Below, piece after piece: positions 4,901 through 40,900 of a stretch of DNA of 64,000 nt. Source of the DNA: Siphonodentalium dalli. Its lineage: Eukaryota; Mollusca; Scaphopoda; Gadilida; Siphonodentaliidae. The position numbers were made by a program, and so were the translations under genes. Every line of letters begins with the position of its first letter. The stretch's first letter is position 1. The stretch is taken from NCBI GenBank assembly GCA_032622095.1, contig CP136065.1, positions 155,503,577 to 155,567,576 of the forward strand. Reading direction: 5' to 3'. Below the pieces are notes generated by a model. It saw only the letters and a list, made by a program, of their open reading frames with translations. It was not told the DNA's origin and made no database searches.

Positions 4901-7900
4901 TATAAGAGAATACATTGGCCTTACAGTATTTACATTGACCTTGTAAGCCAGTGCATTCTTTTATATATGCGAGGCTACCTTTGGGAGACTCGCATTATTA
5001 AGAGAATGCATTGGCACATGATCTTCAAAGCTGCACCAGCACAGCTCCCGTCATGAAAGGGATATACAGTATGCACCTGCAAACTGTTTTTGTCACTTCT
5101 CACTTTCAGATCGAGGAACTTTGTTCATTGTGATGGACTACTGTGATGGAGGTATGTAAAATTAAAATCTACATGTGAGATAAGTAAGACATTGCAAGTA
5201 GGGTACCATAAGTAATATAGTTAGCAAGTGATAAACAGAAATACAGTTCAATCTGAAACCTGGGAAATGCAAGTCGTAACATTGTTTGTGTTAGAAATCG
5301 GAGGTAGGTATTGCCGACAACAACCTTATCATTATGGACAGAGTATGTTGTAAACAAAAATTTCATTCTAAAATTTATTTTGACTGTCAGGTACCTTTTT
5401 TCTCTGTGTTATTATTCCTGATAACATCAGCTGCAAAATGCAGAACTATGTATTACTAAATAAGCTTTATTTAGAACATGCTCATACCTAGAGGCATAAG
5501 ATGATATACCGGTACTGCATTTGTGGTCATGTGATATTGTCATCAACTTAGATTACTTGATATCTCACTTCTAATGAGAAATATAACTGTCTTTTGTATT
5601 AATTGGACCGAATCTAGGTGATAAATGAGACTACTATGAATCATAATGTTTTAGGTGTCACTTTGATATATTGTTTTTTTTTAATTTTCAGGTGATTTGT
5701 ACACAAAAATAAGTTCTCAAAGAGGAATTTTATTCAAAGAGGATCAGGTTTGTTTGAGATACATGTATATTCTCATCTGCTGAATCATAGTGAAGGCTTG
5801 AAATTAACTCTTTCTTTACTAAGGTAGCAATACACAATTTCTGGCCATTTTGACCACTTTGAGGGGGTACTGTACTACAACCTTCTGCTGCGCCATGGTC
5901 ATTGATAAACAGCACATGAATTCTTGGTTACAAGATACAGAAATGGTCAGAGCATTATCTGTCTGTATTTTGACAGGAATTGTCACATCACAAGTTGAAT
6001 TATCTCCCTTTTATCATCTTTTTTTGCTGAAATTGGCAGAGTGAATGTCAGTCTATAATCACCTTATGAGCTAATAGAACCTAGATATATATAAGATATA
6101 TTAAAAAATAAAGAAAAGTTATATCAATTTTGAAATTTTGCCTTGGAAGTGCAGACGACTGTTTCAAGGGAGATAAATCAGGATCTTTTCCGGTGGAGTA
6201 CCATACAGAGCTGGCCCACAACATATTTCAAAAACATACTCCGTAATCACATGTTGTATACTATGGTACCTTGATAAAATAATTAAACCATCAAACCATT
6301 ACTCCCATGAATAACATATGCAAAACTGACAGTTATAGCCCTTATATGCTTAAAATCCTATTTTTCAACCCTCCGACAAACACATGAATTGTGTATTGCT
6401 AACTAAATGGATTCTCCAATCCAGTGATAAAGGTATATGTTTGAATGGTCTATTACTTATCATCTGAACATTTCATAAGAGAAATACTCGTCAATGAATC
6501 TTTAGTTAAGAGAGGGTTAATAAATATGAATCACAGTGAACCCTTCTACTATGTGCATGCATTTAAAAAAATATTTTAATGAATATATGGAAAGTAATTA
6601 AATATTGTTTTGTTAATCAATAAACAAAAAATCTAGCAGTGTCTAATTGGATTTATCTACTGGCTAAAATTTCTCCCATCATGAATTCCGACAATGATCA
6701 TTGTCGTTCTCATTTCTACCCATGCGTTTTAATTTTCCATTGATTTTGCTTTCAGATTTTTGACTGGTTTGTGCAAATATGTTTAGCATTGAAGCACATT
6801 CATGACAGAAAAATTCTACATAGAGACATCAAAACACAGGTGTGTATTCATTTTATCAATAAGTTGGGTGTACATATTAACCTTAATCACATTATCAAGA
6901 TAATAAGGTGAACATGGAGAGGATATGGATTACCGATATAAATATATACTTAATTATTGGCATTATCTTGTAGATATCGTACAAACATTAATAACATTTA
7001 AAAACAAACACACAGATCAAGTTTGAATCATGGTTTAATCCAAGAAATTTGTCATCGTTATGTCCATTTTCATCTTTAGAATTTGCTGCTCATTTTGTTT
7101 CAAATTTGATATATGGATAACTATTATATACAGTTTGGTAGGTACTACTTATATGAATATACAGTTTGTGTTCAAATCTGTGTTGGTTGAATGAGTTACA
7201 CCAATTTTCCACTTAGAACACAGACTTCGAAATTAGGAAAAATGTCCCACAGCAAATTTGTTAAGATTACACATGGATTTTTTTGTGTGTTTTTTTTAAT
7301 AATTTATTCAATTTTGTGTTACAATTTGTATGGCTAATTATGAATTCCCTTAAATTTCGAGGACTGTAGAACATCATAAATTTAGTTATATCTACTTAGA
7401 AAATTTTCAGAATTTTTTACACTACTAAGATGTTAGCAAGGGATAGCAAGCATTTTGTTTTACATCAATATGACCAATTTCACCATCACAGTATATATTG
7501 TTCTGGACCAGACCAGGAACTTCTTTCTCACATTGCCATGTATGTTATTTTTCAGAATGTGTTCTTGAACAAGAGTGGTACTATACAATTAGGAGACTTT
7601 GGAATAGCAAAAGTTCTCAACAGGTAATGTAGCTGCTGGACCCAGTTGTTTGACTTCTGATCATCAGACCTCCTACGTACTTCCTGACATCCATCCTCCT
7701 TTTCAAACTCAATATTTCCGCCAAAGGAAGCCCTCACACTGAACTATATGGATAGATGTCCTGCGTTTGTAAACCATAGCAGAAAAGGGTTAACTTTTTG
7801 GTTGCCTACGGTAACTAATGGTCAGTGGCTTGCCTCGGCATCAGTCACGCATGCGCAGTCCCAATATAATTCACTGTACAGATTGAATTAGCCAGTTTAT

Positions 7901-10900
7901 TTTTCTGCTACCAACCGAACGGATCATAAGGGAGTATTTTTCCGAATTTGTCGTTTAACAATAGCGACAAATTCAATTTATCGATACAATAATTACTGGT
8001 CGCCTACGCGTTCGTTTTTATAATTATCGTTTCGAATTCACGGACCGTTTCGTTTCAAACATATAATTGTTCGTGTTTTTCGAATAGGCGACTGACTTCA
8101 AAATGTTCGAATATGAAAATCGACATTTCGCCATAATCAGCCGCCATTTCAAGGCCTTACGAGGCGCATAGACTACTGTGAACAATTCATCTATGTAATT
8201 ATTATAGAACCTATAAGGTATGATATAATTTGTCAGATATAAAAAATGCCACGTGATTCGCTAACGGAAGTCTCCTAATTTCGTGGGAATTTATTTACGC
8301 GTGGACATTTATTTAGCAATAATTACCATCGCTACTGACGCTATCTATCATAATGTTATGAACAACATTCTTTCTCATAATACTTTGTTGTTTTATGGTT
8401 CTATACCACTGATCCAGATGTGTTGGTCACATTCGAACTTAAAGTTGATAACATTAACAATCTTGGTTTATCAATGTCAAAAACAGATACCATTTCAAGG
8501 CCTTACGAGGCGCACAGATTATTGTGAGAAATACATCTATGGAATTATTATAGCACCTATAAGGTATGATTGAATTTGTCAGATATCAAAAATGCCACGT
8601 GATTCTCCGCCGGAAATATCATAATTTCGTGGGAATTATTTTGACGTTTTAATGAGTGGAAATTTATTTAACAATAATTCCATCGCTACTGACGCTATCT
8701 CTCGTCATGTTATGAACAACGTGCTTTCACATAATACTATGTTTCAATACAAATGATCCAGATGTGTTAATCACGTTTGACCTTGAAGTTGATTACAATC
8801 TACCCAAGAATACTGACAGTTGATTAGATCTTGGTTTATCAATGTCACATGCATAACAATAACTTCATATGACAGTAGTACCGTAGTGCTACGAATAAAT
8901 CTCAGCCATGTCATAGAGGTATGTCGATTAATAGCTACCTTGTATATACCGCTATTCTCAAAGTGATTGACCAGAGAAACGGGGTGATACCCCGGTCATG
9001 ACCGCGGTGATACCGGTAATAAACGGTAGCGGTATCGAGACGGTCATGGCGTGAAGTTACGGTATTGGGTGATGATACAGTGGTCTTTTAGCGGGCACCG
9101 CATTAATTTTGTTGAATACCGCGGTGATTTTCATGGAACTCTTTTAGGGGAGGTATTTACTCGCGCATGCTTGTTCGCGTTAACAAGCGGTATCGGTGCC
9201 GCGGTGTTGGAGGATACCGCGGTATAGTACCGCCATATTAACTGGGTGACACCACGTTATTGGTGGTTAATTACTTTAAGTATGGCGGTAGGTCTAATGA
9301 ACAATAGCTGCGATTATACACCAGCCGGTTCAGCAAGCCGGTCTGAACCGGTGGGCTTGTAAATTTCTGAGAAGGATCCAGGGATGTTTTTCTACCTGCT
9401 ACAGGTTTGGGCGCTCAAACTCTGGAGACCCTGGGGATAGTAATTATTAAAGTGGTTCTCCATTATTTCAACAAAAAAAAAAAGAATAATTCAACAACTA
9501 AACATGAAAATCGGATGAGATAGTCTACTAGTATGATATAGAGCCTTTATTTGCACCATCTCTGGATCCTTCCCAGGTAGTATTTCTCGGTCGGATCTCT
9601 TCTCGGGCAGGAACAGTTCACGCTCCCCCGATTATGCCGCGGCATTAAATCAATTAGTGGGGAAGCGACCGGTGGCGATGCAGGGGTACTTGGGACCCCC
9701 AGGACATTTGGTCCCACACCGGCGCAAGCGGTTCTGTGTGCTGAAGTTGCCAAAATCGCGTGCGAACGTAACGACACCGGCTGGGCGGCCTACGGCGACT
9801 TCGGCATAGGGCAGTGGCCCTACCCATGAGGTAGCAAGCCCGGTCCCCTTGGTCACGATCTATATAAAGACACGGCCTTGCCTGCCTCTCAGCCGTCTTG
9901 GGGTTTCTGCTGCAATGGCCTCTACCCATCGTTCTGCTTGGACAGGACATTCAGCTTGGTCGGGACCACCTGCATTTGGGGGGGGGGGGGGGGGGGCTCA
10001 CCCCGGTCCGATGGCTCCACCTCCTTCCGGTTATCAGAAGAAACCAGTTTTGGCTATGGGATTCTTCATTTCGACACTGGACTCCAAAATTGGAACTCAG
10101 TTTATCAGCCTTAAAATTCCATGGGAGGTATTTACTCCTCGATTGAGCCATCGCCGGAATGGGCCTCCCTCTAGTGTTTTGTCGTCCATTATTGCAGGTC
10201 GTTCCGACGCTAGGGCAGAGAGCGACATGCTATCCTTACACCCCAAGGCGTCTGAGGCTTTTGATGACGACCCGTCTGCGCACAATACGTCAGACTGTGG
10301 ATCTTTTCGGTCGTCACAGTCTGGCATCGGTAAGGCAGAAGCTGCGGATCGTGATTTCCTATCCACGGATTATCTCATCTATAGGCTTCTTCCTACTGAA
10401 CTATGAACTCTCAAGCCCTCCTGGCACGCCCTGCGCAATCGTACCACCGTCTTCAAAATGCATCGAGAACTCGATCTATCTTACCTGTGATATACATTTC
10501 ATAGGTAAGTGACACGACCCGCGACTGACACACTGGTCAATAGACTTCACACATGAATGAAGCACATTTACATGGAAAGCATTTCTCTTGTCACGTGCCA
10601 CAACGACCCTGCCAATGGCCTGGCCGACAGAGTACATCTCATGGCTCTTCATACTACTATTACCAATATCAATTTGATTATCTGGCACATGGTAATAAAA
10701 TTAACAGGGCACTGCACGCCTATAGACAATAGACAATAACGCGGGCAAAGACGTTTGCACTGTCCATCTCAGCTTTCTAGACTTTCTTTGCAGGCAGGGG
10801 ACCACCCAGTCCGAGTGGATCCCAACCCCATGGCACCCGATCATACGGGCCTGAAACCATGCTGCCAACTCTGCGCGCTTCGGTATATGCCGGAATTGTC

Positions 10901-13900
10901 CTATCAACATTCGACAATAAAAACAGGCAAAGACGTTTGCGCTGTCCAGCTCAGCTTTCGAGGAAGCTCTTTGACTAGCCATCAAACCTTTCCTTGCAGG
11001 CAGGGACCAACCCATATGAGGGGATCCCAACCACATGGCACCAGCCACCCAATCATAAGGGCCTGAGATCATGCTGACAACTCTGCTCGCTTCGGTCTAT
11101 GCTGGATTTGTCCTATTTTCCTTAAACATGCCTTCAACAGGACCACTTAGGTCGGGGGAGCTCCTCTCCATCATGGCTCTTAAAATTCAATAAGTAACAA
11201 CATTATAAAGGGATGTGTGTCCTTTACTAGGAGGATAAAAATTTTCATTTGTTTCCTTAATCAGCGAGCCTTTTTGGAGGGGGTCTTCCCCTAGTTTGCT
11301 GCATGCCTCACACTAACATATCACACACCTAGGTCGTTCTGCTGCATGTTTGGGGGGGAAAGTGACATGATGTTCTGGGCAGAGGCTCAGAACTGAATAT
11401 TCCGCATGGTGACAATTTACCCGTGGTTATCATCTGATTACATTGTACATCATTTGAACTGATTTCAGTTGTCAAAGAGCCAAAGGGCCTTCTGCAATGA
11501 TCTCATTGTGACTTATAGATCACCTTGATATATAATTTTTATATCATTTTTATATATTTATATCAGTCCTTCCCAGGAGACGGGAGTGATTGCTCTCGAA
11601 CCTGTATGCACTCGTAATTTTCAATTCACGTGTGCTAAAATTCGCACCCGTCCTTCTTCACAAAATACTAATGGAGACTGTAATTGTTGGTTCAATATTG
11701 AACTATTTTAAGGTTTATTTAGATGCTTTACCATCTCAGTGCAACTATGGCATATTAAAGTGTAACTAGACATAGGTCTATTCCACAATGACTTTTGGTT
11801 TGAGCAAAAACCAAAACTTACATGTACAATTATGGTATCGTATGGGTGCCATATTACACCCGTCTTCTGCATTACGGGAGCAAATAAATGCTCTCGGTGT
11901 GTTTTCCTCATGGGAAGGACTGTTTATATACTCGTAAGATTTGTATCACAGGATTTCTGTCGGATATCCTGTGATGCATAGGTACCTCAGAGAGGGCTCC
12001 CTCTGTTCAGATGGCTTGACTCCATTATCGTTGTACAACCTGTTTGGCCTAATGGGTTCTCAACTCAATCCCTGTGCCACAAATTTGGCATCAGGTTCTC
12101 TGGCTTTTTCTTTGGCGAATAGCAGTTAGTTAACTTAGGTTGTCTCGCCATCGATGGAGTGGGCCTCCGTCTGCAGGTCGTTCTGTCGCTAAGGCGGAGA
12201 GTGAGTTAGTCTCCTTCCTTCATGATCCTGCATCATGGGACCTTGACGGGTGGGACCTTAGAACAGACAGCTGAAGAAGACGACACAGAGAGGAACGAAG
12301 AGTTTCTTCTAACGTTATACTTGCTCGGTTCGCTCGCAACTATGCATTGGATGGCACCTCATGGGATGTTTGGTTCAAAACAAGGGGGGCGGTACACATT
12401 TGAGCAATATAGCACTCTAACTATATGAGTTATTTCACGTAAATAATCCTAACAGATTCATTAAAGTGTTCATATATGGTACAATCTGTTTTAGAAGAGT
12501 ACCTTTACTCAAAATTTGGCTATTAACTTTATTGCTCGTGCCTCCTCCTGGGCTTGCATTCTAATCCATATAGTTCAGTGTGAGGGCTTCCTTTGGCGGA
12601 AATATGATATTTTTTAAAATATAATATATATTTCCTTAAAGAAAGCCTGAACACTGAACTATCATAGGGCCCTCCCATGGCGGTGCCATTCCCAACCCCG
12701 CGACTCGCCAATCTTCTGATTGAGTTGAAAATAAACTGGCTAATTCAATCTGTACAGTGAATTATATTGGGACTGCGCATGCGTGACTGATGCCGAGGCA
12801 AGCCACTGACCATTAGTTACCGTAGGCGACCAAAAAGTTAACCCTTTTCTGCTATGGTTTACAAATGCAGGACATCTATCCATATAGTTCAGTGTTCAGG
12901 CTTTCTTTAAGGAAATATATATTATATTTTTAAAAATATCATTTTGTCTCTGAAGAGCAGATGTAATAAATATGCTGGATGATATTTCAAATTCAAATTC
13001 TTGGAGAATAATGACCATATCTATGAATTCGACCATGAATGGTATCCAGTTATGATGGCAGTCAACGAAATGTAGTAATCACATGTATAGTGTATAAATG
13101 AGCCAATGTCTCCTGCTAGATTTTGGTGTATACATAAATAACATGACACCCATACAATACTATTTACTTTAACTTACTTCTTGATTTATTTTACTTCATG
13201 TCATTACAGGCAACCCATGAGAATTGTCGATCAGTTAATTAACTGTTAAAAGAGCATACCACATACTCGAATTTATCGTATGATTGCTATTTCTCAGGTT
13301 GTCATGTTAACACATGGATAGTGTGTCAATATACTTTATGAACGCATGACTATATGTTTTTGTATCTTCAATTAATATGTAAATAAAGTTATTTAAAAAA
13401 CAAATTTCTTGGAGAATAGACAATAGTTGAATGTTACATTATTGAAGCAGGTGGACAACTGTTGTCCTTAAATATCATTTAAAAAAATTGCATAAGTACA
13501 CATCATGATAGTCATGGTTTAATAAATCAGTAGATAATACAAATTAAAGAAGTTTTAGGTTATTATCTTGCAGATAAAAAATTGAGTCCTATTTTCAAAC
13601 CCGAAGCTATATGAAATCAAGAAGCCTGAAAATATCAAGCATATAATTTTTATGTTAAAAATTGATTCAATTTATTTGTTTTCATCATCAAAATGTTGTT
13701 CATTATAATTGTAATCTTATATTGGGGCAAATAGATAGTGTTTAAATCAATATATTTGAGAATAGAGTGCCACTAAAATATTTTCGTTTTTATGTGTACC
13801 CATACCATAGTATGGTACACATAGTGTCAACGTCCGGATTGACCACTCGTCGTTCGTCCGTCCGTCCGTCCGTCCGTCTGGCCGTCCGTCCGTCTGTCCG

Positions 13901-16900
13901 TCCGTAGACACTTTACGTGTAATGCGATAACTCAAACATTTTTTACCTGATCAAAACCAAAATTTGTATATGGGGTTTTTAGCCCAATATACAGATCGAG
14001 TTCGAATATGGGTTTGATCCGACTTTTTTTTACAGAGTTGTGGCCCTTTTTTTACTTAGAATTCACACATTCTGCCATAACTCAAACATTTTTTAGCTGA
14101 TCGGAACCAAATTTGGTATGTGAATTTCTCGGCCCAAAATACAGATTGAGTTCGAATATGGGTTTGATCAGAGTTTTTTTTACGGAGTTATGGCCCTTTT
14201 TCGAATTAGAATTCATTAATTCTGCCATAACTCTAACATTTTTTATCTGATTGGAACCAAATTTGGTGTATGAGTTTCTCAGACCAACATACAGATTGAG
14301 TTCGAATATGGGTTTGATCGGATTTTTAATGGAGTTATGGTCCTTTGACATATAATTCACACATACATGTACTTCGATAAATCAACCATTTTTCATCTGA
14401 TAGGAACCAAATTTGGTATGTGAGTTTCTCAACTCAAAATACAGAACGAGTTTGAATATGGGTTAGATCCAATTTGTTATACCAGAGATATGGCCCTTTT
14501 TAAACTAAGAATTATCCAGATTATAACCCAAGTAACTTACAATTAATGAATACCTGCTTCTCTGTGAGCAAGATAAAAGACAATATAGTTTATTGCTTTG
14601 AGAGTTATTTATAGCCCTCATATGTTAGCTCTGTATAAGACAGAGATAGGTGATTTAACCCCTTTTACCCATTCCATGTCTTTTAACCTTTTCCATTAAA
14701 TAAATAATTATATTATTTTGATATCTCACATGGCAATTTGCAACAACATGAATAGAACTGCTTACACTATGATAGTGGTGACAGGCTCTAGAGTTTAGAT
14801 GTTATATTAACCCTTCTATATTGACTCATACATTCCAATAATTTGTGTTATTACTGGTTATTATGTACATTTGTCATATACTACTTTAGATCATAACAGT
14901 ATACTCTATAATTCAACATTAAACGATTATGATTCTGATCATAACAATTTATTATCGCCAAGGGATGGGTTAAACATCTGCCGATCGTGATCGGCCTCTC
15001 GTTACTTTTCTTCAAACCTTTGCAGCACTGTCGAGTTAGCAAGAACATGCATTGGAACGCCATATTACCTGTCCCCAGAAATTGTTGAATCTAGGCCTTA
15101 TAACAATAAAAGGTGAGTTGATGTGAAATGCCTATTTTTTTATCTCAGAAATTAAGTCATCGAGGCATCGATCCCATCTTGATCACTCCCTAATTTTGTT
15201 AATGTCTCAATGATGTTCCAAAAGGTACACATGTGGAATGGAGATAATCAGATTAAGTTGGAATGGCATGCCTATTTTCACCTCAGAATGTCTACGTACA
15301 GTAATGCCCTAAATAATCGACTCCTTAACCACATCAGAATTATGGGTGATTTTTCAGGATTTAGTCGGAAATATGGCTTATTGCCATTCATCGGAAAGCT
15401 CTCACTAGTATTTTTCATTTTTCTTTTGTATGGTAAGCTGAAAGTTAACATGGGATATCTTGACTAATTTGGTGTAAAAAAATCAGACAGTGCATCTTTA
15501 AAGATGCAGGGCTCCAGGCCAAATATTATGAAACCTAATTTACTTACTTTACTTACTCAATCCGAATTAACGCTCGCAAATTACTACTTCCTTGGCTTCG
15601 GGGGTAAAAAATATTTGATTCGAGTTGAGGAACCCGCCCATCAAAGCTAGGAGTGATCAGATATCGATATCCGAAATTAATTATTTTAATTATAAGTGGC
15701 CCAGTAAACTGTCGACGAGAAGAAGTTATCTGACAAGATAGTGGACGAAGATAACTCTAAAATCCAGTGGCTTTTTTGTGTCAGATATTTGATAACCGAC
15801 AAAATTTCGTTGAACAAAATGTTGATAAATAACAGGTTTTGGGCAATTTTATACTATAGTTGACTGTGGTTAGCATTATTTTTGGGCAATTAATCGATTC
15901 TGATAACTGAAGCGGCATTTAAAAAAATGTTGTTGTTGTTGTTGGAATCTGATGATATGGGGACCATTGAATCGGATTGAGTAACTTTAAGATTCTAGTG
16001 TATCAAATAACATATTTGGAATAACAAAATGACATTCTTTGGTACATATAGGTCAAGTTTGTCACCGGGACAATGCAAAATACTGTGTTAATTTAGATGT
16101 TGTTGTAACTGGAGGTCTGGAACCCTGAATACATCTTTAACCCTTTCATGACAGGAGCTGTGCTGGTGCAGCATTAAATATCCCGTGCCAGTGCATTCAT
16201 TTATATATGCAAGTCTCCCTAGGGAGACTTGTATATATAAGAGAATACACTGGCTTACATGGTCAAGGAAATATTGTTAGGCCAATGTATTCTCTTATAT
16301 ATGCAAGGCTCCCTATGGGAGACTTGCATATATAAGAGAATGCATTGGCACAATGTTTTCGAAAAATTTCTAAAAGCTCCAGTCATGGAAGGGTTAAGTT
16401 GGCCATCAAAAACCTTTTCAAAGTTCTGATGTGTATCATGATGCTGTCTCTTCTTTGTGGTATAATTTTACTACTTGTAAAACATGTGCTATGTTGGAAT
16501 TAATGCATTAAAGCAGGGGGGGGGGGGGTCAGGAATAAAATTACAGATACAATATGGAAATTTTGTGTTTTTCAGTTTTGGGGACCCACCACCCCGGGAG
16601 CGTAAGTTTTTTCCACCCAGGTCTGGGACACCCACCCGGGAGTGTAAGTTTTTTCCACCCAGGTCTGGGACACCCACCCCCAAAATTGATGAAAATGTTG
16701 TAAATTCTACTAAATAATGTGTTGTTGGCAGGGTAAGGGTCTCTCATTGTGTCTGCACCAGAACTGAGAGAACGCTGATCAAGTAAACCCACAAAAAATA
16801 AACAAAGCACATGGCTGAAAAATATGCCAACAAAACCAGTGACAAAACCGTTAAAAACCCAAATATTTATGGTTATAAAGGTAAAATACCCACTTTAACA

Positions 16901-25900: not shown

Positions 25901-28900
25901 GCAAAGTGGATGTATACCACCACACTGTAAGCGAAATAGACTTCATGCACGCGATCTATACTCTGAGATCAACTATGAGAATAAACAACCTTTCATCGGC
26001 CATGAAAACCGCTCAGGAAAAACCGGATGCATCTTTTGGTGGCCATATATTTCAATATGACTTCTTTTGGTGGCTCCCAGAATCCTGCATCCGATACTCT
26101 ACTACTTGTACATAATACTCTTTAGCAGTGCTTTCAGTCGGCCTCAAGATCAAGAACGTCGGAGTCGTTCAACGCTTATTCCCATGATTACCGTTTGATG
26201 TGATAAATCAACCATTGTTTACATTGTTCTTTTGAAAATATTATGTTCCATAAAAAAATTATGAATTTGTGTTTTGGAAGATTAATAATTGGGCGGGTGG
26301 GCGGGAAAATTAAAAGATTTCTATAAACTGTCTGATTGACGCTATAGGCTTAAAACAAAGGAACTGAATCTTGGAGTATAAAAGACGCTATTAGCATTTA
26401 CCCCGACGATCCGCGGTATCTGATTGGCTGGCAGCCTAATCCTTTTCGGCGAGAAATGATAGATAGATAGATAGATAGATAGATAGTTTATTGGTCAGAA
26501 TGCTATTCAGATTAAATAATGTTACAAACATAGATATATATATATTGATATTGGCATCCTGCCAGGATTGACATAGCCTTTGTTTAAGGCCGTCTTCCTG
26601 TCAACCCTTCAACGAATAGTATGTATGTGTGTCTTGCCGATAAGCATGTCGCTGGTATTGTGCATAGATTTTATTAATGTATGTCTTATGGTGTGCGAAA
26701 ATTGATATATTTAACTGCCGACTCCTGATAATTATCTTTTTGGATCAGACGTGTCATGTTAAGTTGTTTGGAACCGACAATTATATTATATATACCTAAT
26801 AATATATATCGAGAGATGCAGGCACCCGCTTAACCGAATTGAATTTTATAAGAACGATGGTTATAGAATGAAGTGGTTATAATATGAAGTGGTTATAATA
26901 TAAAGTTTTCTATGGACGTGGTTGTCGACATGAATTATTGTTTGAATGTTGTACATGATGGATATTTGAGGCTCACAATTTTGACAGTCGAAATCCGGCA
27001 CGACCCCTTAAACTTAAAGCGACATGTCGGATCCCGCTTGACACCAGACACGTTTATTGGGCTTCGAGATATATACACATACGCATAGGGCGTGTCAGTT
27101 GGTTAGGTACAATCTGGACAGTAGGGATTATCACATGCCACCTCATTGGGATAGGATTCCGTGAAGTTCTCACTAATAATTTTCTTGAAGGTACCCTTAT
27201 TTCCTTGTTCCCTAAGATTACTATCCAGGTCATTCCAGATGCGCGGATAATTGAAATGTGGTAGGGTCTCGATTGTCTTGTTGCGCGGCGTTTCATAAAC
27301 CAGTGTTCCCTTCTGGCGGGTTACTCGTTTTGTTTTATCTTCCTGCTTTGTGAAGAATGTATTAAATGATATTGGGGTACAGGCAAATTTCCAGTCACGC
27401 ACGAACGATGTTATCTGTAATATGTAGAGATGAGCTTTCTTGAGAATCTTGGATTCGCGGAAAAGAGGGTCGGTATGGGAGTTGTATTTTGCGTTATTTA
27501 TAATGCGAATTGATTTTTTCTGCATAAGAAATAACCGATTTAACTGGCTGCTATGGCCCCATATATGTATACCATATAATAAGTGACTCTGTATCAAGGC
27601 ATTATAGAGACATTTCTTAGCATCTTTGGGGAGTATGTGTTTTGACTTATTTATCGCAAAGTTGGCATGGGCTACACGAGAGCACATCTGAGAGATGTGG
27701 TTTTTAAATGTGAGTTTATCATCCATGGTTAGCCCTAAAAATTTGAAGTTGGTCACCTGTTGGATATCTTTCAACCCTAATTTTAGTGATACATTTCGTG
27801 ATTCTTTTGAGTTATTAAATAGAATAGTTCTCGTCTTTTCTGCATTTATTACTAATTTATTTGCAGCGCACCAGTTACTGATTTTAATTAGTTCCTTATT
27901 CATTTCATTCTCGAGTTGTGTCAGGTCAGAACCGGAAATGTGAACGGTAGTATCATCTGCAAAGGACAGTAGATCAAGATTTGTTGAGTTAGATATGTCA
28001 TTAACATATAGAGGAAAAATCAGAGGACCCAACACGGACCCCTGGGGCACACCAAATCGTATATTTCCAGGTTCAGAGTTCACGCCTAAACAGTCTACAT
28101 ACTGGGTTCTGTTTTGTAGGTAACTATGGAACCATTTATTTGCAATACCCCTTATTCCATAATGATTCAGTTTTTCAAGTATGATATTATGATCTACAGT
28201 GTCGAAAGCCTTAGATAAGTCGAGGAAAACGGCTAATGTCGAATGTTTTGATGATTTATTAAAAGTCTGAGTGATTGTATCTAAAAGATGGAGGACAGGA
28301 TGCATGTTGCTGTGGTTTTCCCTGAATCCATATTGGTGCTTATAAAGGACATCGTATTTATTCAAGTATTTTGATAACCGTTTATACATAGCTTTTTCAA
28401 TTAACTTGGAAAATACTGGGAGAATACTAATGGGTCTGTAATTATTAAAATCATGTGGATTGCCCTTTTTTGGTATTGGTATGACCCGAGCTGTTTTCAT
28501 TTTATCCGGGACAATCCCATTTTTGAATGATTGATTATGTAAGAAAATGGTTCTGCTACCTCACTCGAAACTTGTTTTAAGAGTTCCGTTGATAATCCGT
28601 CACAGTCTTTACTGGATTTGAATTGCATGCTTTGTAGTATTGATATAACTTCACTTGGAACCGTAGGGTGTAAAAACATTGTATCACTATAATGTTCTGT
28701 AAGGAATGCTTTGTAGTCATGGCTTGCATTGGTTTGTATAGTTTTAATTGATTCTTCGCCAACCGATATAAAAAAGTTGTTGAATTCATTTGATATAGCC
28801 GTTTTGAAATGATACGCGGTATTTTATTGGCTGGTGGCCGTCTTCACTTTCCAAAGCGTAATTTTGATTGGCTGACAGCCTGACACTCTAAACGTAAACA

Positions 28901-31900
28901 ATCTTCCAGCTGACGGGCTACTATTGAAAAATACGGTTCCATGAATGAACATGACTATCTATAGCTCCGGATATACTATAAAAGGAATCTGAAGTACCCA
29001 GTGCCATTATATCACCCTTATCCATCCACAACGTAAAAGCTTTTACAAGTAAAATTCCCTTTTTGTTATGGTGGTTCTAATGGATGTGACTATTTTAACA
29101 GAAATACCCACTGCGGAGGCCATCTGTGCCTTTAAGGGGTCTCAAAATGGAAAATTGATTCTTACAGTTGACAATGGCTACTTCTAAGAATTCTGCTGTT
29201 TTAGACATAAAAAAACAATAGATCATCTGTATATATAATTATTATATAAAAGATGCATTTAACAGCTCTGATAAATGTGTTAACATCACATTATTTGGCC
29301 AGCTCTAAGGAATGATTATTGAAGTACACATCACCATCATACTCAATGGCCCTACCTCCCTGATATACAATCGGATTAACAACCTGTTGATAGAGTTGTT
29401 AACATCTCCTCTACCAGAAAACTGGCTTGAAGCATTTTCTTGACATAGGTATTTTATGCAGGTGGTTTAAGCAACCACTTTCCAGGCTTAATAAATAGCC
29501 TGTACTTCTTGTGGAAAGGTGAAGGAATAGACTTTGCCCACAATAATGCTCCCCAACCCACCGATAAAAGCAACTCACAAACTGGAATTATAGAATGAAA
29601 TTCAATTAAACGCAAATTGCTATGAGAATTTAGGGAGTCTGTGCACCATTCCACTTGACATTTTATATTTGAAATTAGTTTCAAAAACTCTTACATGTAT
29701 ATGTTGAGCAAATTATGTTTACAATTTCCATATATATACATTATATTTGTGACTTGCTGGCAAATTATGCACTCAAATGATTATTGATCTACCCTAACTA
29801 TCACCCGTGACTAAGCGATTCAGTCGCTTTCGGTGTGAATATAAAAATCGTGTGCTTTGAATCGCTACGGACAACAGAAAACGGACTTAAAAATGGCGCG
29901 CTCGCGCCCTGTGTGAATTTACCTTAACTTGCCAAAAATTTTCCCTTGATGAAATGACATCATTAGCAGAGTACATGTTAAGATCATTCTCAAGATTTAT
30001 TTGTGTCTTTCTGTAGAGGAGTGTCCGATTGCAAGAGATCTTTCATTATACCCCCATCTCAAAAGATGGGGGGGGGGGGGTATACTGGATTACATACGTT
30101 GAGCCATCCGTCTGTGTCCATCCGCTCATATATCTCAACCATGGGTTATCGGATTTTGATGAAATTTAGTATGCAGGTGTGGCATCAAGAGGGCTTTCAA
30201 AAGAGGGTTCATTGACGTTGTTCACATTTTTTCGTTCAAGAGTTATCCCTCTTTGTTTATCTGAAAATGTTGGATTTCTGTCTGTCCACTGATATATCTC
30301 AACCATGGGTTATCGGATCTCGATGAAATTTTGAATGCAAATTTGGCATCAGGAGGGCTTTCAAAACAGAGTTCATTGACATTGTTCACATTTTCCGTTC
30401 AAGAGTTATCCCTCTTTGTTTATCTTAAAATGTTGAATTTCCGTCCGTCTGCTCTTATCTCTCAACCATGGGTAGTTCAGGATCTCAATGAAATTTGGTA
30501 TGCAGGTTTGGCATCATAAGGGCTTACAAAAGAGTGTTCAAGAGTTATCCCTCTTTCTTTATCTGAAAATGTTTGATTTCTGTTCATTAGAATTGTCCAG
30601 TAATTTGTTCGTTCCTCACATTTTTTTCAAATTTGATTTCCAATCTGTCCATATTTCAATTTTCTCCATGGGGGTATACCAGCATCCATGGTGCAACCTC
30701 TTGTTAAAACCTGGCTACCTTGCATTTGAGCCCAACTTTCTGCCTTTAAAATTAATGATAATTCTGACTTGATAGAATGCGTAACTACTCCGATTGCTTA
30801 ACCAAGAGAGGATGAGCAATCAGTGCTCTGTGACCTGGGTAATCTATATATATAAAACCTGTCGTCTGTCTGTGTGTGTGTATCTGTGTGTGTATCTGTG
30901 TATAACTCGGTCACACTTTTGGCGCGCTTATAACTTTTCAACCATGCGTGCAATGTGGACCAAATTTGGACCACGCCCTATATTGTGTCGTAAAAGGCGA
31001 CTCACAAAATTTCACGCCGATTGGTCAAAGCAAACCTCAAATCTAGCATGGTCCCCAAATGCCGTATTTGCACCCAAGTAGACACTATTTCTTATGACGT
31101 TTGTCGAATTGACGTTATGCGACGTCATACATAAACCCACACTTGCGTTGCTGTTGCATTGACAAAATTTCCATGCGCTCTACCGAAGCGTTGTTGAAAA
31201 AGGGCGCTATAGATTAATTGTCAGATAATTTTGAGTGTGAATATAATTAATGCATGTTGCTTTTGCCATGGAAGTGCATGGGGTGTAGAGTCGAGACTAG
31301 AGCGTTCTATGCCGTCGTTGGAAATTGGTGCTAAATGGTCTTATAATATGCCACTTCAGTGTGAATATAAGTAACGGATTGTGTCTTTGTTATGAAAGTT
31401 GTGCATTGTGTGTGGAATCGAAGGAGTACATATACGGAAGACGGCAAATTGATAAATAACATTTTAAACAATATAAAAATGGGTGCGAAGTGGGAAAATG
31501 GGCCGTAGTGCAAGGGCCTGTGGCCTTAGGCTTATATAGGCTGCTGAATAAAAGCTCCCGAAGGGAGCCTGTTTAAAAAAATCATAATGTATGTGCGCGA
31601 AGCACCCGAAGGGGCTGCAGTCCACTCGGTCGCTGAATAAGGCTCTGTTTCAGTTACTGGAATATATAAAATAGTAATACTGAACTATAAGTTGCTTTTG
31701 TTGCATTCCATATGCGCATACATATATGTGGGTGGTAGTAGAACCTACAGTTTTTCTGTGAAAAAAAAAAGTGTTCCCGAGCCATAGGCTCATATATATA
31801 TAGCGCACAAAGGGGCCGCAGGCCCCTCCACCGCTGAATAAATACTCCCAAATGGAGTCTATTTCAGTAAGTAAATACATTAATAAAATAACATGTTGAT

Positions 31901-34900
31901 TTTGTTGAGTTCCAAATGTGCATGCATATATGTGGGGCAGGGGGGGGGGGGGGGTACAAAATACAGTTTTAATTCAATAAAGTGTCCCCATGCGCCTCCG
32001 GTGAAAAAGAAGTATGACCAATCCATTGCTAATACATGTATAGAAATGATAATGTGTTCATGGCCGTGGAGACCAGAAACGAAGAACATTTATATACCCG
32101 TCATTTTGACTGGCAATCCCCTAGTAATGTTATAAAGCACATTGAAGTACGTAACTGTCAATTATGCTATTCTAAATTATTTGAGATTTTAATAATTTAT
32201 ACTGTAATTTTTTTCAGGAAATGGCAGATGAGTTCAACCATACTGTAATGCATGGTGTAAAGTTAGCAAAAGCTCTACCAGCTGGTCCAGCAGCATCCAG
32301 GCCTCCAGGGGGTGCTGGTAAGTAATAAATTTGTACACATTTATGTTTGACTCATGTGATGTGTTTTGACATGTTTGTCATAACCTTTAACATCTCCCTG
32401 GCATTCAACCAATTCGCTACTAAATACAGCTTTGTTTTTAATTGCCGTGATCAACTTTTTATAGAACCTCCTTAACCCCTCCGTGACTGGAGCTTCCTGA
32501 ACTTTTGTGAAAATCCTGTGCCGATGCATTCTCTTATATTGTATGAGTCTCCCATAGGGAGCCTCGCATATATAAGAGGATACACTGGCCTAACAATATT
32601 TATCTTGACCTTGTAAGCCACTTTATTTTCTTATATATATATAGAAATCATCTAATGTTTTTTTTAGCTGGTGATGGAAGGAACAGGCCAATAACTCCCA
32701 GATATGATCCGGCTAAAGTGTACGGTCAACCAGCAGTCAGAAAATCAAATGACAAGAACAGGTCTGTATTGAAATAAAACTAAAGCTACCTGCTGATCAT
32801 GAACCATATCCGATGGCATAACAAACTTGGAGTTGTACTGTAGCATTATATGTGCCAAGTTTCATGCTTTTATCACATCTACTAAATGTCAGTATTTTAT
32901 GTTTTAATCTAACCTCATATATTAAAAATAGTATGATATTCTTAACAATTGTTTTTTCCCTTCCAAAAACAGTTTAAGACTGAGACCGAAATATCCATTA
33001 TATTTGTAGGCCAGGATCAGCAGCCGGATCACGACCAGGATCAGCTGCCGGATCACGACCGGGATCAGCTGCTGGGGCGAGACCGTCAAGTGGAGGTAAA
33101 AGACCAATACCAGGGGCGCAGGTAAGCTTAGTACCTAGTTAAATAACAACTCAATTCAAGCCTGCAAATAGTGTGTCTGTCATTTGCACAGGGATGGATT
33201 TAATGTTTTAATTTTGAATAGCATTTTGCAGCACTGGGTAGATTTTGTTTAGCATTTCTTACCAATAATTGTTTTTTCATTAGTTAGCAGAAATTGGAAA
33301 TCGCTTCCCAAATTGCGATGCAAATCCAGGTAAATCGAGCCCTGCATTTGCAGAATGAGGTCCTCAGAGGAGAATTTAGTGAAGCTATACAGCATCGTGG
33401 GCTAGCATTACCAAATTCACCCTCTGGGAATCTCATTCTGCTTAGACCTCAATGGGAGAGACCTAGGATCAGATTGAATTCCCTAGTTGCAGTTGGAGAT
33501 GTTCACCCATTTGTCACCTCGATTATGCATTTTATCTTCTGCAAATTAGGTGATATACAAACTGAACAGAAGGGAAAATAACTAAAAACAATGTTAATTT
33601 GAGACTATAGAAACTTCCCAGAAGATGAGGCATAAGCAGATTGAGGTCCCCAGAGGGTGAATTTGGCGATGCTAGCCCGCTGTTTGGGATAGCATCACTA
33701 AATTCACCCTCTGGGGACCTCATTCTGCAAATGACAGACACACTATTTGCAGGCTTGACTCCATTAAGGTCACTAATGTTCCCCTGGAGTTGAATTGGCC
33801 TCTTTTATAATTCTCTACAATTAATATAAGATGGAAGAGAATTAATATTCTGTTTTTCCGCCAAGGAGAAGCCCTCAGCTGAACTATATGGATTATTATC
33901 CTCGGCCTTGTGTTATCAGGAGGGTTAAAATTTATTTCCGTCTATTGCCTACTCCGGTCAATCAGTGCTCGGGATTAGCTATGCATGAATGCGACTCGTG
34001 TAACTCTCGCGTGATTCTCGCGTTCTAACAATCCATCTAGTCAGTTTTTAATTCCTCCTCCAGCTATCGGACGTGGTTAATTTTAAGGAAGTATTATTCT
34101 GTATTGCGCGTTATCAAATCAATATTTATTGTTGATAACAACTTGCAATTTATCCGTTGCTTTTAATAAAAAATTTACGAACTCGCAGAAACTCTTCGTT
34201 TCATTGTATGCGCGAATTCCGTGTTTTTTATCGACACATTTCGTCTACGAATTTGTGATTGAATTTGACAAAAACACCGTTTGAATCACGTTGGCATATT
34301 TGCCATTGATGGCCATTTTTACTCAGATGCACATCGTTTACTTATGGCCAACCTATATTGCATTACTGTGCAACATATACGGTGGCATGACTCGTCGAAT
34401 TTCGGAATCCACGTGGTGCGGTATGCGGAGTAGCCTAATTTCGCGCTACACATTCTATTTCCTGACGTCGTATCTTCGCCCCGTTCAGGTTATGTATACT
34501 GCCATATCATATATGCAACAGCTATGTTAGTGCGCAGAACGTTGTCCAGGACAGAAATATCTCCTTTTGCACTAATTTACATGAATAAATAACAAAGATA
34601 GAACTTGTTACCTGATGTAATTTCTTTTGCCTCAACTAATTGTATTTTGTAAGTTGACGTTGAGCAACTGGAACTTCATCGACGTTCGGGAAATGATTAT
34701 CGAAGAACATCATTGTACATATACATTATGTCATTATCATTAATTGTGCTTAAGCGATTAATATTTGCAAATCTTAGCTAGCCCGAATGTCTTAACATGA
34801 GGGCTTGTATTTGGATACTTGAAACGTTGGCGCGGATGTTAGTGACTTCACAATATTTATTTGACAATCCTGACTCTGTTCTTGCGATTCCATTCACTTT

Positions 34901-37900
34901 CCATCATTGTATCAATGGAATAATAGTTAGAAACAAGGCGATTCTGTTCGTTATACATCTAGTATTATAATACCTGTGTCAAATAATGCTGTAATACTAT
35001 AATAGTCTCTTTCTTTACGTACATGTATAGTATGAGTTGACAGTGTCCGGTTGCTACGACTCGTGCAACTGGTTTGATTGGGGAATAGGATTATCAGACA
35101 CACGATTTGACAACAAGGATTTTCGTTTCTAGTTTACATTATCGAATGGCGATCTCCATCAAATCATAATCTGACTTTCTCTCGGCGACAATTGTGTCCG
35201 TTTCTTTGCAATTACTTACTGTATTTTGCTGAATGGGTTCCCCTGTTCCAAGACTGCACAGCCATGCAAGCGCAGTAGCCTGAACCTTCTGCTATAGTTT
35301 GCTTACCTATACAATGTTAATTCCGTCCGTGGTCAGAACTCTTTGGTGACATTTTGGATGAGATCCTTGTTGCGAGCCTACTGGCCTACTTGTGGCAAGT
35401 CGCCTTATCCGATGTGACCTGGCATGAACTGTTATCCTCAGACATTAGTGTTTATCGATACATTCAACATTCATTGGTCCATTAATCAGGACCAATATGG
35501 TATCAGTGCCTCATCGCCACAAAACCGGCCAAATGGTGAGCATGACACATGTATGGCCAGCCGTAATAGTTCCATACCAATGGTATCAGTGCCTTAAATT
35601 CTCAATGACATAAGAACTGACTATATCAATATGGCGACAATGTTTTCACCGATACCGACATACTTCTGCGCTTTCAATCCGTGAATAGTAACGGCGAACT
35701 ACTATGCCTATATATTGCCACGTGCTCCAGATGCATTGCCGATAGCCTTTCCCACTGAGCCCATCACTTGGCTCTCAACCTTCTATTTCCACATATCGAA
35801 AAGATCAAATGTGAAATAGCCTTCACTCACGTATAAAGCACAGTTACATAACATGCATTTATATTGCGCAGGGCCGCTGCCACTATAATTTTCAACAGAG
35901 ACCAACACATGGCTCTTTTCTTTCTATTGCCTCATATCCAATTGATTATCGGGCAAATAACAAAAAGGACAGCATTTGTATTGTCACACAAATTAAGTGC
36001 GTTTACATGAACAGCATTTAGATTTATATTGCGCACGACCACGGCAGGCCTGCGTATTGGAGGCACACGACGGTTCGGTTCACATGACGGTTGCGAAATC
36101 TAGGTTGCGCCAAGGTTGTGTGAGGCTCTCGCGATACTGATTATAACTGTTTGTGTAACTTATGGGTCCCTAAGGACAACCAGACAGCCGACACATTCTA
36201 GTATGTTACGGCTTGCGCATATTTTGCATTCCGCAGACCTGCCAGTGCCAATTTCAGAAGAGTCCAAAACATATCTCTTCTCCTTCTATTACTAAATATC
36301 CATATGATTATCTGGTGAATAGAATACCTAAATGACTAACACAAATGACAGCTTTTGTATCATCACACATATACAGCGCCGTTCCGCAAGAAGCCTCTAT
36401 ATCGTGTATGACCACTGCCCAGTACCAGTGACTGGCGGGGTGCTACTATCGTTGATTCGGAAAACCAATCTTCATGGGCGCACACTTAGCACCTGAGCCT
36501 TAGGGTGGGGAAGACTCGTCATGTGCCGCTGACAGCGCACCAACCAACCAGCCTTCAGTTCTTCCCAGATGAAAATGCAGCTCAAGCCCTCATTTTCTCT
36601 CACAATTCAGAAGACGGATGTAATTGCATCCGTAATATAATCGTTCGTTGTGTTTCTCTCAAATTAAATGTCTTTGTGGGATAGACCTCGATACATGCAT
36701 GTTTAGTTGCACTTTCACATTCCCATAATTTAACTGCGATGGGACCGGTTTTTAAATATACCTCCAATAGTTTAATATTGAATCAACGGTTACTGTAACC
36801 ATGCACTTTTGTCAAGAGGGAGAGGGCAAAGTTTAATGCTCGTGAATTAGAGAATTACAAGTGCATACGGGTGCGAGTACAATTGCTCCTGTCATCTGGG
36901 AAGGACTGAGACTTCTGACTCTTCCCCACGGTCCATGGCCCACTCCATTACGAGAGTGGGTCTTGTCCCCCTGGAATCATTCTCCCTCGGGATATGTCCA
37001 GGCCTGCTCTACCTTCGGAGGACTTTCCGTACGCGTATAAAACATTCTCCTCACCGTTAGCAAGGGCACCGCGAAAACTGTTCTTGCACAGGAGAAATCG
37101 GTTCTCATCGTCCTCTTCGCCGAGAAGTGACTGTATCTTACCTGCAGTTTAATTTCTAGCAGGTAAGACCACGTGGCCACATAATGAACGGAATTTACCT
37201 TATTAACATTATTTGCATTAACTAACAAAATGTTTTGTGTATTACGCTTGCTAATAACTAACAGAATGTCTTGTCTTGCTTATAGTCGACGAGATTCAAC
37301 TTTGATGACCACACACCGTGCGGGTTGCTCAAGAAATAAACGCGGCAATATGCGGTATTGTCATTGTTGGATGAGGGCCCGTTGGTCCATGGTTAAACAA
37401 TTTGAGCAAACGTACCAGTCTTACCTCGGGCAGGACCAGTTCGGCCCCCCCCTGGTCATGCATCAGCAGACTTTGGGTGGCAGCGTGCAGTTCTCGGAGA
37501 TTCGGGCAACCAATCCTCCAGAATACCCGCACACTCGCCTTTGGAGGCTGTTCTGGGTGGGGAAGTCTCGATGTCCGGTGCCACTCAATGCGCTCCAGCC
37601 AAAAGGCCTTCTGACGCTTCCCCACGGCGCTGTGACCCACCCCATTACGAGGGTCGGTCTTGTCCCCCTGGAAACGTCATCCCACGTGATACGTCCAGGC
37701 CTGCTCCTCTGCCGTCATGGGATCCTAGTGGTATGTCATCGACTTTTATGCCGGCTTGTCTGGACCACCTGCATTCGGGAGATTCAGTGGGGGGTTTTCT
37801 CTGGTCAAATGGATCCTTTTAATTTTATCTTTTTGCTGACCTTCTGGCATTGGGGTGGGCCAAAGCACCTTAACTTCAACTGCGAGAGCATTTATTCCTC

Positions 37901-40900
37901 GTTCGAGCCATTCCCCGAGTGGGCTTCCCTATAGTACCTTATCTCAACCTGATGCAGGGTGTTCTGTTGCTGGCGTCGATACTGACATGCTTCCTATACT
38001 TCTCATGGCGTCTCATGGCTTTGACGACGATGGGCAAGAATCACGGGATTCTGTCGTTCCGAAGGAACTCGCTTTGCGTATGGAAACGACATGGGTCGAT
38101 CTCTTGTACAAAACTTCATCACAGGATATGTGTCAACTGACTTACACAAACTTTGCACAACTGTACCAGTCTTTACCTCGGGATGAACCAGTTCAAGCCC
38201 CATGGTCCTACACCAGCAGTCCGTGGCAGGCGGGGTGCCGTTCTCGGAGATTCGGGCAACCAATCCTCCAGGACAATCGCACCCGAGCCTTTGGAGGCTG
38301 TTCTGTGTGGGGACGACTCGATGTCGCATACTGTCAATAGCGCTTTCTATTTTGGAAGATATCTACAGAAATCACTCATCTCATGAAAACGAGAAGAAGA
38401 CGCAGTGAAGTCAGCAGCAGAAGAAGAAGTCTCTACTTGCTCGGTTTCTAGCTGGCGCATATGGTGTGGCACTGCCTGGGACGTTTCTTCGTAAAACCAG
38501 GGGGGGGGGGGGGGCAGGTACAAGCTTGAGCAATACTGGAATCTGAATTTATGAGCTCTTTCACATAACATATCAAGGCTGATTCATGACTAAATCACAT
38601 TTACATGAAATCTGTTTTCGGAAGAGTACATTCCCGTCAAACTGGGATATTAATTTTATTGCTCGTTGCCTCCTCCTGGGCTTGCATTCTAATCCATATA
38701 GTTCAGTTGAGGGCTTCTCCTTGGTGGAAAAATATTATTTTTAAAAGTAAAATTACTTTTTCCTTAAGGGAAGCCCGAAACTGAACTATCAGAGATCCCT
38801 CCCATGGCGGTGCCGTTCCCAACCCCGCGACTCGCAAATCCTATGATTCGGTCACTGATTCGGTCGGAAAATTAAAAACTGACTAGATGGATTGTTAGAA
38901 CGCGAGAATCACGCGAGAGTTACACGAGACGCATTCATGCGTAGCTAATCCCGAGCACTGATTGACCGGAGTAGGCAATAGACGGACAATAAATTTTAAC
39001 CCTCCTGATAACACAAGGCCGAGGATAATAATCCATATAGTTCAGTTTCGGGCTTCCCTTAAGGAAAAAGTTATTTTACTTTTAAAAATTATATTTTTCA
39101 GACACCGCCACCTCATAAAAATATGGCCCCCTGGGTGATTTTTATTGCCCACTGAAATTATAAATCATCCTGCCAGTCGGTTTCACATCAAGATGTCCAC
39201 ATTCTCTGTTATCTCTCTTTTCTTCTCTTTATGTGGCCTAACATTTGTACTAAATATTTGAAATGTGTATTTAAAAGTCACCAGGTGTTGATACGTGTAA
39301 ACAGTTATGATGCACATACAAATTCAGTGTGCAACAAGGTTTGTTCAATACTGGGGGTCTTTCTTTGGACATTCACAGAACGTAGTCCAGATACATTCAG
39401 GAAACTGTATAACAGTATGGTCAACCAGTGTTGGAATACTGCAACAGTGCATGTGATCAACATTTTAATTATCAAAGTATAAAACTTGATTGTTAAGTGG
39501 CCACATCTTCATTTAACCCTTTCATGGTGGGAGCCCCGCTGGTGAAGCATTAAAGATCATGTGCCAGTGCATTCTCTTTTATATGTGAGTCTCCCATTGG
39601 CTGACAAGGTTAAGATAAATATTGTAAGGCTCCCTATGGGAGACTCGCATATATAAGAGAATGCATTGGCAAAGCGTTTTCACCAAATTTCAAGAAGATC
39701 CTGTCATCAAAGTGTTCAGGTGATTGGGATAAAATATCTATAATGATGCCATCATTTTAATTTGAAAGTTTTCATTTCTTTTTAGGATTGGGAGAAAAAA
39801 AGAAAGGAGTTGATTGAGAGAGAAAAGAAAAGAAAGGAAGAGGAACTAGCAAAAAAGAAAAAGGAGGTGATAACTCTGCGCGCTTTCATAATATTACAAA
39901 AATTAACACAATAGATAGATAGAACAATACAAGTGTGTGAACTTCTTAACGTTATTGTACAAGTTTGTTGTGATGTGATGGTGAGTTGTACCTTGCTGCA
40001 CGACAGAAATTACTTGTGATTTATGAAGACGTAACCTCATAATAGTGAAGACATTTTCTGTTATAGTTGACATCATCAATAACATTGTCAACATAATTGG
40101 TTTGTATTGTCCAAGGACAAGACAAAATTTGTTATTGAACGTTTTTAAAATTCTGTATTTTGCTGTATTTCCCAATAATAAACCAATGTGTGTGCAATAT
40201 TTAATATTATTATATGAATATGATCATTAATTTTGCAATCAGCCTTTGCTTTTGCAACCAGCCAATCAAAATTGCTTATACGTAACTCATTTGTCATTGA
40301 TTTTCAGAAGAAAGTTTCATTAATTTGTTGTTTATTGAACATATTGGTCTCTTCAGCTTCTACAGTAGTACTCTAATGGGCTAAAAGGTCAAGAATACCC
40401 CTAGGTCATATAATAAAACCATGGTTTCGAACTTGATATGAGATTTATCAACCCTAGTAAGTTAATATTCACCTCGGCCTGCAGCCTTGGTGAATATTAA
40501 CTTCCTCGGGTTGATAAATCCTCATGTCAACCTCGAAACCATGCAACAAATGTATAATGATGCACTCTGTACCTGAAGCTTTAGATCTGATAGCCTTTAT
40601 AAACTGTTATAGCAAATGTATATATTCCATATTGAGGACGAATACAGTGAAACCTGTTATGAGAGACCACCCATTTTGCCAACACATGACAGGTGGTCGC
40701 CGACGACAGGTCTGTTCCAATTTCGACTGAACTGACATCTATCATCAGTGTTAGATGTCTGAGCAAGTGAATTATTTTTATACAAAAACTGGTTGAAAAT
40801 GATTGTGATTATATGTTTAATCTTTTTTTAATAAAGTATAGGCCAACTTTAAATTAATATGAGTAAAAAAAAAAGAAAAAAGAAGAGATTTATAGGCATA

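Follow-up and report, generated by a model that had tools for sequence, protein, structure and literature searches.

How have two elements in which no reverse transcriptase (RT) or tyrosine recombinase (YR) can be detected come to lie in a genome with intact, well-defined ends, and which enzymes moved them? This question is raised by E1 and E2, two elements in a 64,000-nucleotide stretch of the Siphonodentalium dalli genome (C5:155503577-155567576, hereafter the window). Both carry inverted terminal repeats (ITRs) and an internal complementary region (ICR), the arrangement of DIRS retrotransposons. Our analysis of the window and of the whole assembly (2.23 Gb, 9 contigs) establishes that E1 and E2 are non-autonomous DIRS elements of two diverged subfamilies. 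We consider it likely that they represent two subfamilies, out of at least five, of non-autonomous DIRS1-like elements equipped with cis parts only, with the enzymes supplied by a related coding clade, here called X, or by a close unsampled sibling of it. The similarity searches throughout scored the best candidates only, and the identities given are those of best hits. The parts of the two elements are as follows.

7712..12942, + strand: E1, a non-autonomous DIRS element of ~5.23 kb with ITR and ICR, its borders taken from fetched copies, RT and YR undetected
7712..7903, + strand: left ITR of E1, its outer 42 nt copied in the ICR
8132..8797, + strand: internal duplication of E1, unit ~310-320 nt, 81%
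12564..12662, + strand: ICR of E1, left half 12564-12605, right half 12601-12662
12728..12942, + strand: right ITR of E1 plus right extension
33853..39097, + strand: E2, a non-autonomous DIRS element of the other subfamily, ~5.24 kb, right end +/- few bases
33853..34053, + strand: left ITR of E2
38690..38789, + strand: ICR of E2
38870..39097, + strand: right ITR of E2 plus right extension

The inverted ends of E1 (7712-7903 and 12728-12918) align over 192 nt at 95.3% identity, with 8 mismatches and 1 gap opening, and those of E2 (33853-34053 and 38870-39069) over 202 nt at 95.0%, with 7 mismatches and 3 gap openings. The initial annotation had put the differences within a copy at about 2-4 positions, which is too low. 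Most of these differences fall in the outermost ~40 bp, where the sequence of each end agrees with the corresponding half of the ICR. The left half of the E1 ICR (12564-12605) is the reverse complement of the left tip (7712-7753) at 42/42 positions, and the right half (12601-12662) matches the reverse complement of the right tip (12884-12945) at 60/62; the corresponding E2 segments, 38690-38732 for the left tip and 38727-38789 for the right, match at 41/43 and 61/63. An internal region complementary to both joined tips, as had been claimed, is therefore present in both elements, the complementarity being near-exact rather than exact. The left border of E1 is identical in 8/8 fetched copies with differing flanks. 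The right border was found in six of the seven copies checked (L001-L006; L007 is cut short) and always reads ...AAATATCAT, as in E1. In E1 and six copies, no flank repeats of 4 nt or more were seen by eye in a check for target-site duplication confined to occupied sites. The measured lengths agree with the ~5.23 kb first given for each element, and comparison of E1 with E2 bears out the statement that they are diverged subfamilies. An Rfam search of 7000-40000 returned zero matches.

The absence of enzyme genes was examined by protein-level searches. Neither RT, RNase H nor YR was found by Pfam scans of 8000-12600 in E1 and 34100-38700 in E2, run in six frames each (12 in total) with stops replaced by X; the sole rows returned were EPTP (0.099) and Nod_GRP (0.014), both under their cut-offs. 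In the positive control, the three forward frames of the autonomous DIRS element L056, RVT_1 (1.1e-16) and Phage_integrase (4.3e-07) exceeded the cut-offs, and RNase H (7.9e-05) and Dam (0.00024) appeared under them. Searches by tblastn with X proteins gave no credible RT or YR in E1, E2, L008, L057 or L058 (best E = 0.010, in L008), and the same searches recovered gag, at ~1e-60 for E1 and 2e-13 for E2. Because gag is still detectable at ~1e-60 and RT and YR are not, decay alone does not hide the latter, and the earlier statement that the elements hold no RT or recombinase motif stands. The larger E copies L059, L060 and L061, considered as hidden autonomous forms, were found to hold insertions or rearrangements instead, and tblastn searches limited to the L056 and L027 proteins yielded no credible RT or YR in them (best 0.011). 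L101-L104, taken as 3 kb on the ICR side, and L099 gave gag matches alone or nothing, and no RT or YR.

These features place E1 and E2 close to DIRS1-like retrotransposons. In the part of Piednoel et al. 2011 (PMC3266345) that sets out the DIRS1-like model, the two ICR halves overlap at the circular junction, ITRs combine a short divergent and a usually longer conserved part, a right extension is present, target-site duplication is absent from the model and sizes are ~4-6 kb. E1 and E2 share the ITRs, the 3' ICR derived from both tips, the right extension and the size, and differ from the elements in that account in having no gag-RT-RNaseH-YR coding capacity. Autonomous DIRS1-like elements carry RT-RNaseH and tyrosine recombinase genes, and since E1 and E2 have neither they are not classed as autonomous DIRS. 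Nor do they qualify as Cryptons, which have their own YR gene and no RT, as YR is undetected in both; and they lack the split direct repeats of the Ngaro or VIPER type, their ends being inverted and their direct repeats internal or short.

The E elements are young and numerous, reflecting a recent spread of a form without enzymes. All 40 scored matches to the E1 left end are 99-100% identical (best 40 of 2008 candidates), all 40 to an E1 interior stretch are printed as 100% (best 40 of 1720) and all 40 to an E2 interior stretch lie at 96-100% (best 40 of 907). Exact patterns matched 483 ICRs and 544 left tips genome-wide, with 0 matches for the reversed-pattern controls. Pairwise divergence is 0.30-1.48% among eight E1 sequences (28 pairs, mean 0.68%) and 2.0-2.8% among four E2 sequences; these sets were picked among best hits and therefore give low-end estimates, the whole families being more diverse, and they exclude L008, L010, L013 and L014 (nested, fused or interrupted) as well as the E1-type L060 and L104. 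Since near-identical E1 copies share an interior without RT and YR, the spreading form was already without them. With a full cis structure, no RT or YR and hundreds of copies, the non-autonomous DIRS lineage that had been proposed is thereby supported.

The accompanying proposal that this lineage keeps its length holds in part. E1 (5.23 kb), E2 (5.24 kb) and two further subfamilies, E3 (5.42 kb) and E4 (~5.16 kb), are close in size, but E1 and E2 are not collinear. In E2 a remnant of gag is displaced ~1.6 kb to the right relative to E1, and a block of 360 bp (11563-11922 in E1, 36909-36556 in E2, also present in E3) is ~70% identical in opposite orientation. Equal length is therefore not inherited position by position. 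For the distances between tip and ICR, positions were used for 100 of the 483 ICRs and 100 of the 544 tips, and pairing 87 of those 100 ICRs (on C1, and on C2 to 110.2 Mb) with the tips left 67 paired and 20 unpaired; the ICR spelling of E2 itself fails the pattern, so that E2-type elements fall outside this count. Among the 42 paired E1-type elements the distance is 4800-4900 nt in 21, 4790 in 1, below 4780 in 18 and above 5100 in 2; among 24 T-type elements (E3) it is 4780-5100 in 15, lower in 1 and higher in 8. A loose size limit is possible, with E1-E4 at ~5.1-5.4 kb and the autonomous X element at ~5.68 kb, and the large number of shorter E1-type copies argues against a strict limit.

Retention of one short protein had also been suggested for this lineage. 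The open reading frames (ORFs) concerned lie or begin in remnants of a gag gene, compared here with that of X-985, the X family to which L083 belongs.

9592..10405, + strand: E1 gag remnant (N-half of X-985 gag), frameshifted, 82% DNA identity to L083:910-1738, including the 198-aa ORF 9810-10403
10404..10530, + strand: E1 relic of an X-type right-end region, 78% to L083:5789-5918, abutting the gag remnant
37538..38133, + strand: E2 gag remnants in two main blocks, 32-36% aa identity to X-985 gag, with ORF 37840-38337 starting inside

The codon-wise comparison of E1 with X-985 gag covers 257 codons spread across three E1 frames, with one in-frame stop, a dN/dS of 0.70 and eight gaps of lengths not divisible by three. 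In E1, L002, L003 and L005 the 198-codon frame is uninterrupted, and a G-run indel breaks it in L001, L004, L006 and L007. With the frame broken in four of the seven other E1 copies and the gag match running through three frames, the idea of a conserved protein is not supported: the E1 ORF is a frameshifted remnant of an X-type gag. As this remnant adjoins the relic of an X-type right end, E1 has picked up an X fragment carrying a deletion.

E1 and E2 are part of a larger set of at least five subfamilies, E1-E5, in which the ICR region and tips are common and the interiors differ or are rearranged. E3 is represented by L057 and L058 (~5.4 kb). E4 measures ~5.16 kb in L008, an estimate that spans 829 unfetched bases and an unfetched right end, and 4.04 kb in L061. 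E5 (L099) is 81-84% identical to E1, E2, E3 and E4 across ~250 bases around the ICR and is elsewhere unlike the compared sequences. Nested elements occur, in L008 and L061; L008 was considered as a chimera and this was rejected, as it consists of an E4 nested in an E1.

A coding relative of this set came to light at the E2 copy L010, whose 3' side runs into RT-YR sequence and led to the X clade of DIRS elements (YR search, best 150 of 665 candidates scored; RT search, best 150 of 1216). The overlapping frames of this clade code for gag, RT-RNaseH and YR. L083 holds a gag frame of 543 codons, an RT-RNaseH frame of 752 codons (RVT_1, 1.3e-21) and a frame of 985 codons ending in YR. Among the best hits, 21 copies of X-985 have a 99-100% identical YR end, and in 8/21 the 985-codon frame is open. 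X elements such as L083 and L084 resemble E in the tip motif CCATATAGTTCAGT, in sequence blocks flanking the ICR on both sides and in the origin of gag. They differ from E in encoding gag, RT-RNaseH and YR and in their tip arms, which are of the GTAACGTGTCTC type in X and of the GAGGGCTTCC type in E. The motif TAGTTYAGT is found at the tip in 33/35 X right regions (the exceptions are L082 and L094) and in 0/22 right regions of other DIRS elements, a set that includes L035, without recovered ICR. The E1 and E3 ICRs align with scores of 67-89 against the 33 X and of at most 39 against the remaining 24, shuffled maxima being 25-43. Stretches common to E1 and X-985 around the ICR are CTCGT.GCC.CCTCCTGGGCTTGCATTCTA..CCATATAGTTCAGTGTG, GGAAATAT, ATATATATTTCC and GGGCCCTCCC, and the shared sequence extends to the left of the ICR.

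12384..12563, + strand: E1 pre-ICR block, its common start depending on the partner: ~12384 for E2-E4 (~12311 for E4), ~12487 for E5 and ~12520 for X-985

Judged by these alignments, the ICR and tip regions of E and X are of common origin. The E elements thus have termini and an ICR related to those of an autonomous family in the same genome, as is expected of non-autonomous derivatives, though the tip arms differ. At one locus, the junction L010:4569 / L062:219-226, an E2 element contributes the left part and an X element the 3' part with RT and YR, the X part being ~95% identical to L084 and lacking ~1 kb of it. Two other sources of helpers were tried and set aside: 20 flanks chosen from 150 scored Pfam YR hits shared no end with E1 or E2 (one of them, L027, is a DIRS element), and the 22 right regions of other DIRS families lack the E tip motif.

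These observations support a model in which an X-type helper probably moves E elements in trans. Transcribed E copies would retain what is needed in cis, namely the inverted ends, the 3' ICR storing both tips and the conserved pre-ICR block; the gag and RT of the helper would package and reverse transcribe the E RNA, the ICR would restore the missing tips, and a circle would form, which the helper YR would then insert. That E keeps its ends, ICR and pre-ICR block while the inside changes suggests which parts suffice in cis.

Several observations weigh against this model. The tip arms, which lie between the outer motif and GGAAA on the inner side, are GAGGGCTTCC-type in E1-E5 and GTAACGTGTCTC-type in X-985. 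GGGCTTC/GAAGCCC occurs in 0/33 X right regions, and GGGCTT-type arms occur in all five E subfamilies. In a comparison of five E with three X ICRs, E-X arm identity is 0.55 on the left and 0.52 on the right, inside the range of shuffled left arms (mean 0.47, 95th percentile 0.58); E-E identity is 0.79 and 0.81, and X-X identity 0.83 and 0.75. The searches made turned up no autonomous element whose tips are of the E type, and a pattern for the E tip without the E-type AATCC junction had one match, L099, in which RT and YR are undetectable. The Phage_integrase match of L083, from the proposed helper clade, falls short of the curated cut-off (0.0017, 18.6 against 27.1). The E2-X junction, known from one locus, shares exactly two bases (TT), with alignments overlapping by 8, and a DNA rearrangement could explain it equally well as template switching of RT between co-packaged RNAs. 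The initial annotation had asked for many RT-less copies together with an autonomous family having the same ends; the copies are there and the autonomous X clade shares the tip motif, but its arms are different. The exact helper may accordingly be unsampled or lost, or X may tolerate the E arms. Left and right arms of the same element are clearly alike in X (0.76-0.86) but only weakly so in E (0.57-0.64, near the shuffled limit), so that reading them as half-sites of one recombinase is tentative. The contrast between E and X arms provides a way to ask directly which sequence is read by a DIRS recombinase.

The rival explanations differ in how they account for the missing genes and for the arms. 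An origin of the ITR/ICR pattern by chance or as an artefact of nested insertions gains a little from the nested elements in L008 and L061, but it is already refuted by fixed borders in independent copies with different flanks and by 483 + 544 exact matches against 0 for the reversed control, and we give it practically no weight. Decay of former autonomous DIRS elements, with RT and YR too degraded to detect, would fit the frameshifted gag remnants and the 2.0-2.8% between E2 copies. It is largely refuted by the young copies, as near-identical full-length E1 copies carry the same interior without RT and YR and gag of the same source is found at ~1e-60 where these are not, and we regard it as very improbable. 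Slightly less improbable, though still unlikely, is movement of E as DNA circles by YR alone, in the manner of Cryptons and with no RNA stage, the ICR being inherited baggage. The conserved parts are indeed cis ends only, and the genome is rich in YR genes; but the ICR halves track their respective tips (42/42, 60/62) even though the tips differ from each other, a match that is expected if tips are copied from the ICR during reverse transcription and for which a DNA-only route gives no reason.

A stronger contender leaves the mechanism intact and changes the helper, which would be a non-sampled DIRS family with GGGCTT-arm tips and not the sampled X. The E arms, common to E1-E5 and absent from 33 X right regions, speak for such a family, as does the reach of the searches, which scored the best 112-150 of 665-1471 candidates. 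The outer tip motif, the post-ICR block and the gag remnant point instead to X or a close sister, and none of the RT or YR matches on C1 and C2 falls within 14 kb of any of the 100 listed E-type ICRs, a comparison that used matches from the DIRS and X searches and excluded Pfam YR hits. This version is a realistic possibility, though on balance we lean away from it. More speculatively, and in our view rather doubtful, E1-E5 may be a guild of retro-parasites using a recombination site of their own: either their helper would be nearly or wholly gone, or the X recombinase would read only the outer CCATATAGTTCAGT and the inner GGAAA and ignore the arms; this idea draws on tip arms of 15-20 bp shared by five subfamilies and present in none of the sampled autonomous DIRS right ends.

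To this speculative reading also belongs a loose size limit (four subfamilies at ~5.1-5.4 kb, X at ~5.7 kb), which would fit packaging in helper particles. The X gag carries a PAM2 motif (PF07145), at aa 224-238 in L083 (gag 762-2390) and aa 229-244 in L084 (gag 50-2107), with scores of 20.2 and 24.3 bits against a cut-off of 20; the motif was not found in the gag of two other DIRS elements, L056 and L055. PAM2 motifs are ligands of the MLLE domain of poly(A)-binding protein. A further possibility within the speculative reading is that X gag takes up, through this motif, whatever polyadenylated RNA has suitable ends, and so lets parasites in. A literature search on PAM2 in retrotransposon Gag returned no title on this subject among the matches listed.

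Non-autonomous YR retroelements seem little described in the sources available to us. TOC1 of Chlamydomonas is a YR-type retroelement of several kb with no known coding capacity and with split repeats in place of ITR and ICR. No description of non-autonomous DIRS elements was found in the literature searched, which covers few subscription papers. The nearest described case found is SIRE, a short non-autonomous version of VIPER in the account of PMC6681497, and thus likewise a non-autonomous derivative of a YR retrotransposon; SIRE is a split-direct-repeat element of ~0.43 kb, whereas E1 and E2 are 5.2 kb with ITR and ICR. The relevant part of PMC3266345 covers coding elements and names deleted copies for later investigation, and the DIRS cycle of ICR as tip template, circle and YR insertion is described in the corresponding passage of PMC5633606 as experimentally not fully proven.

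Beyond the two elements, genes for tyrosine recombinases are very abundant in the genome (PF00589, best 150 of 1445 candidates scored). Many of the 20 YR flanks fetched (L015-L034) are presumably Crypton-like, as judged by eye, and many hold imperfect palindromes. Elsewhere in the window, a 485-codon open frame at 27106-28560 on the minus strand resembles a LINE reverse transcriptase by eye. A short frame at 7552-7627 resembles a NEK-type kinase exon by eye, its 75-aa piece having no Pfam match, and 49032-61471 holds dense inverted repeats of 66-133 nt, several of which match one another.

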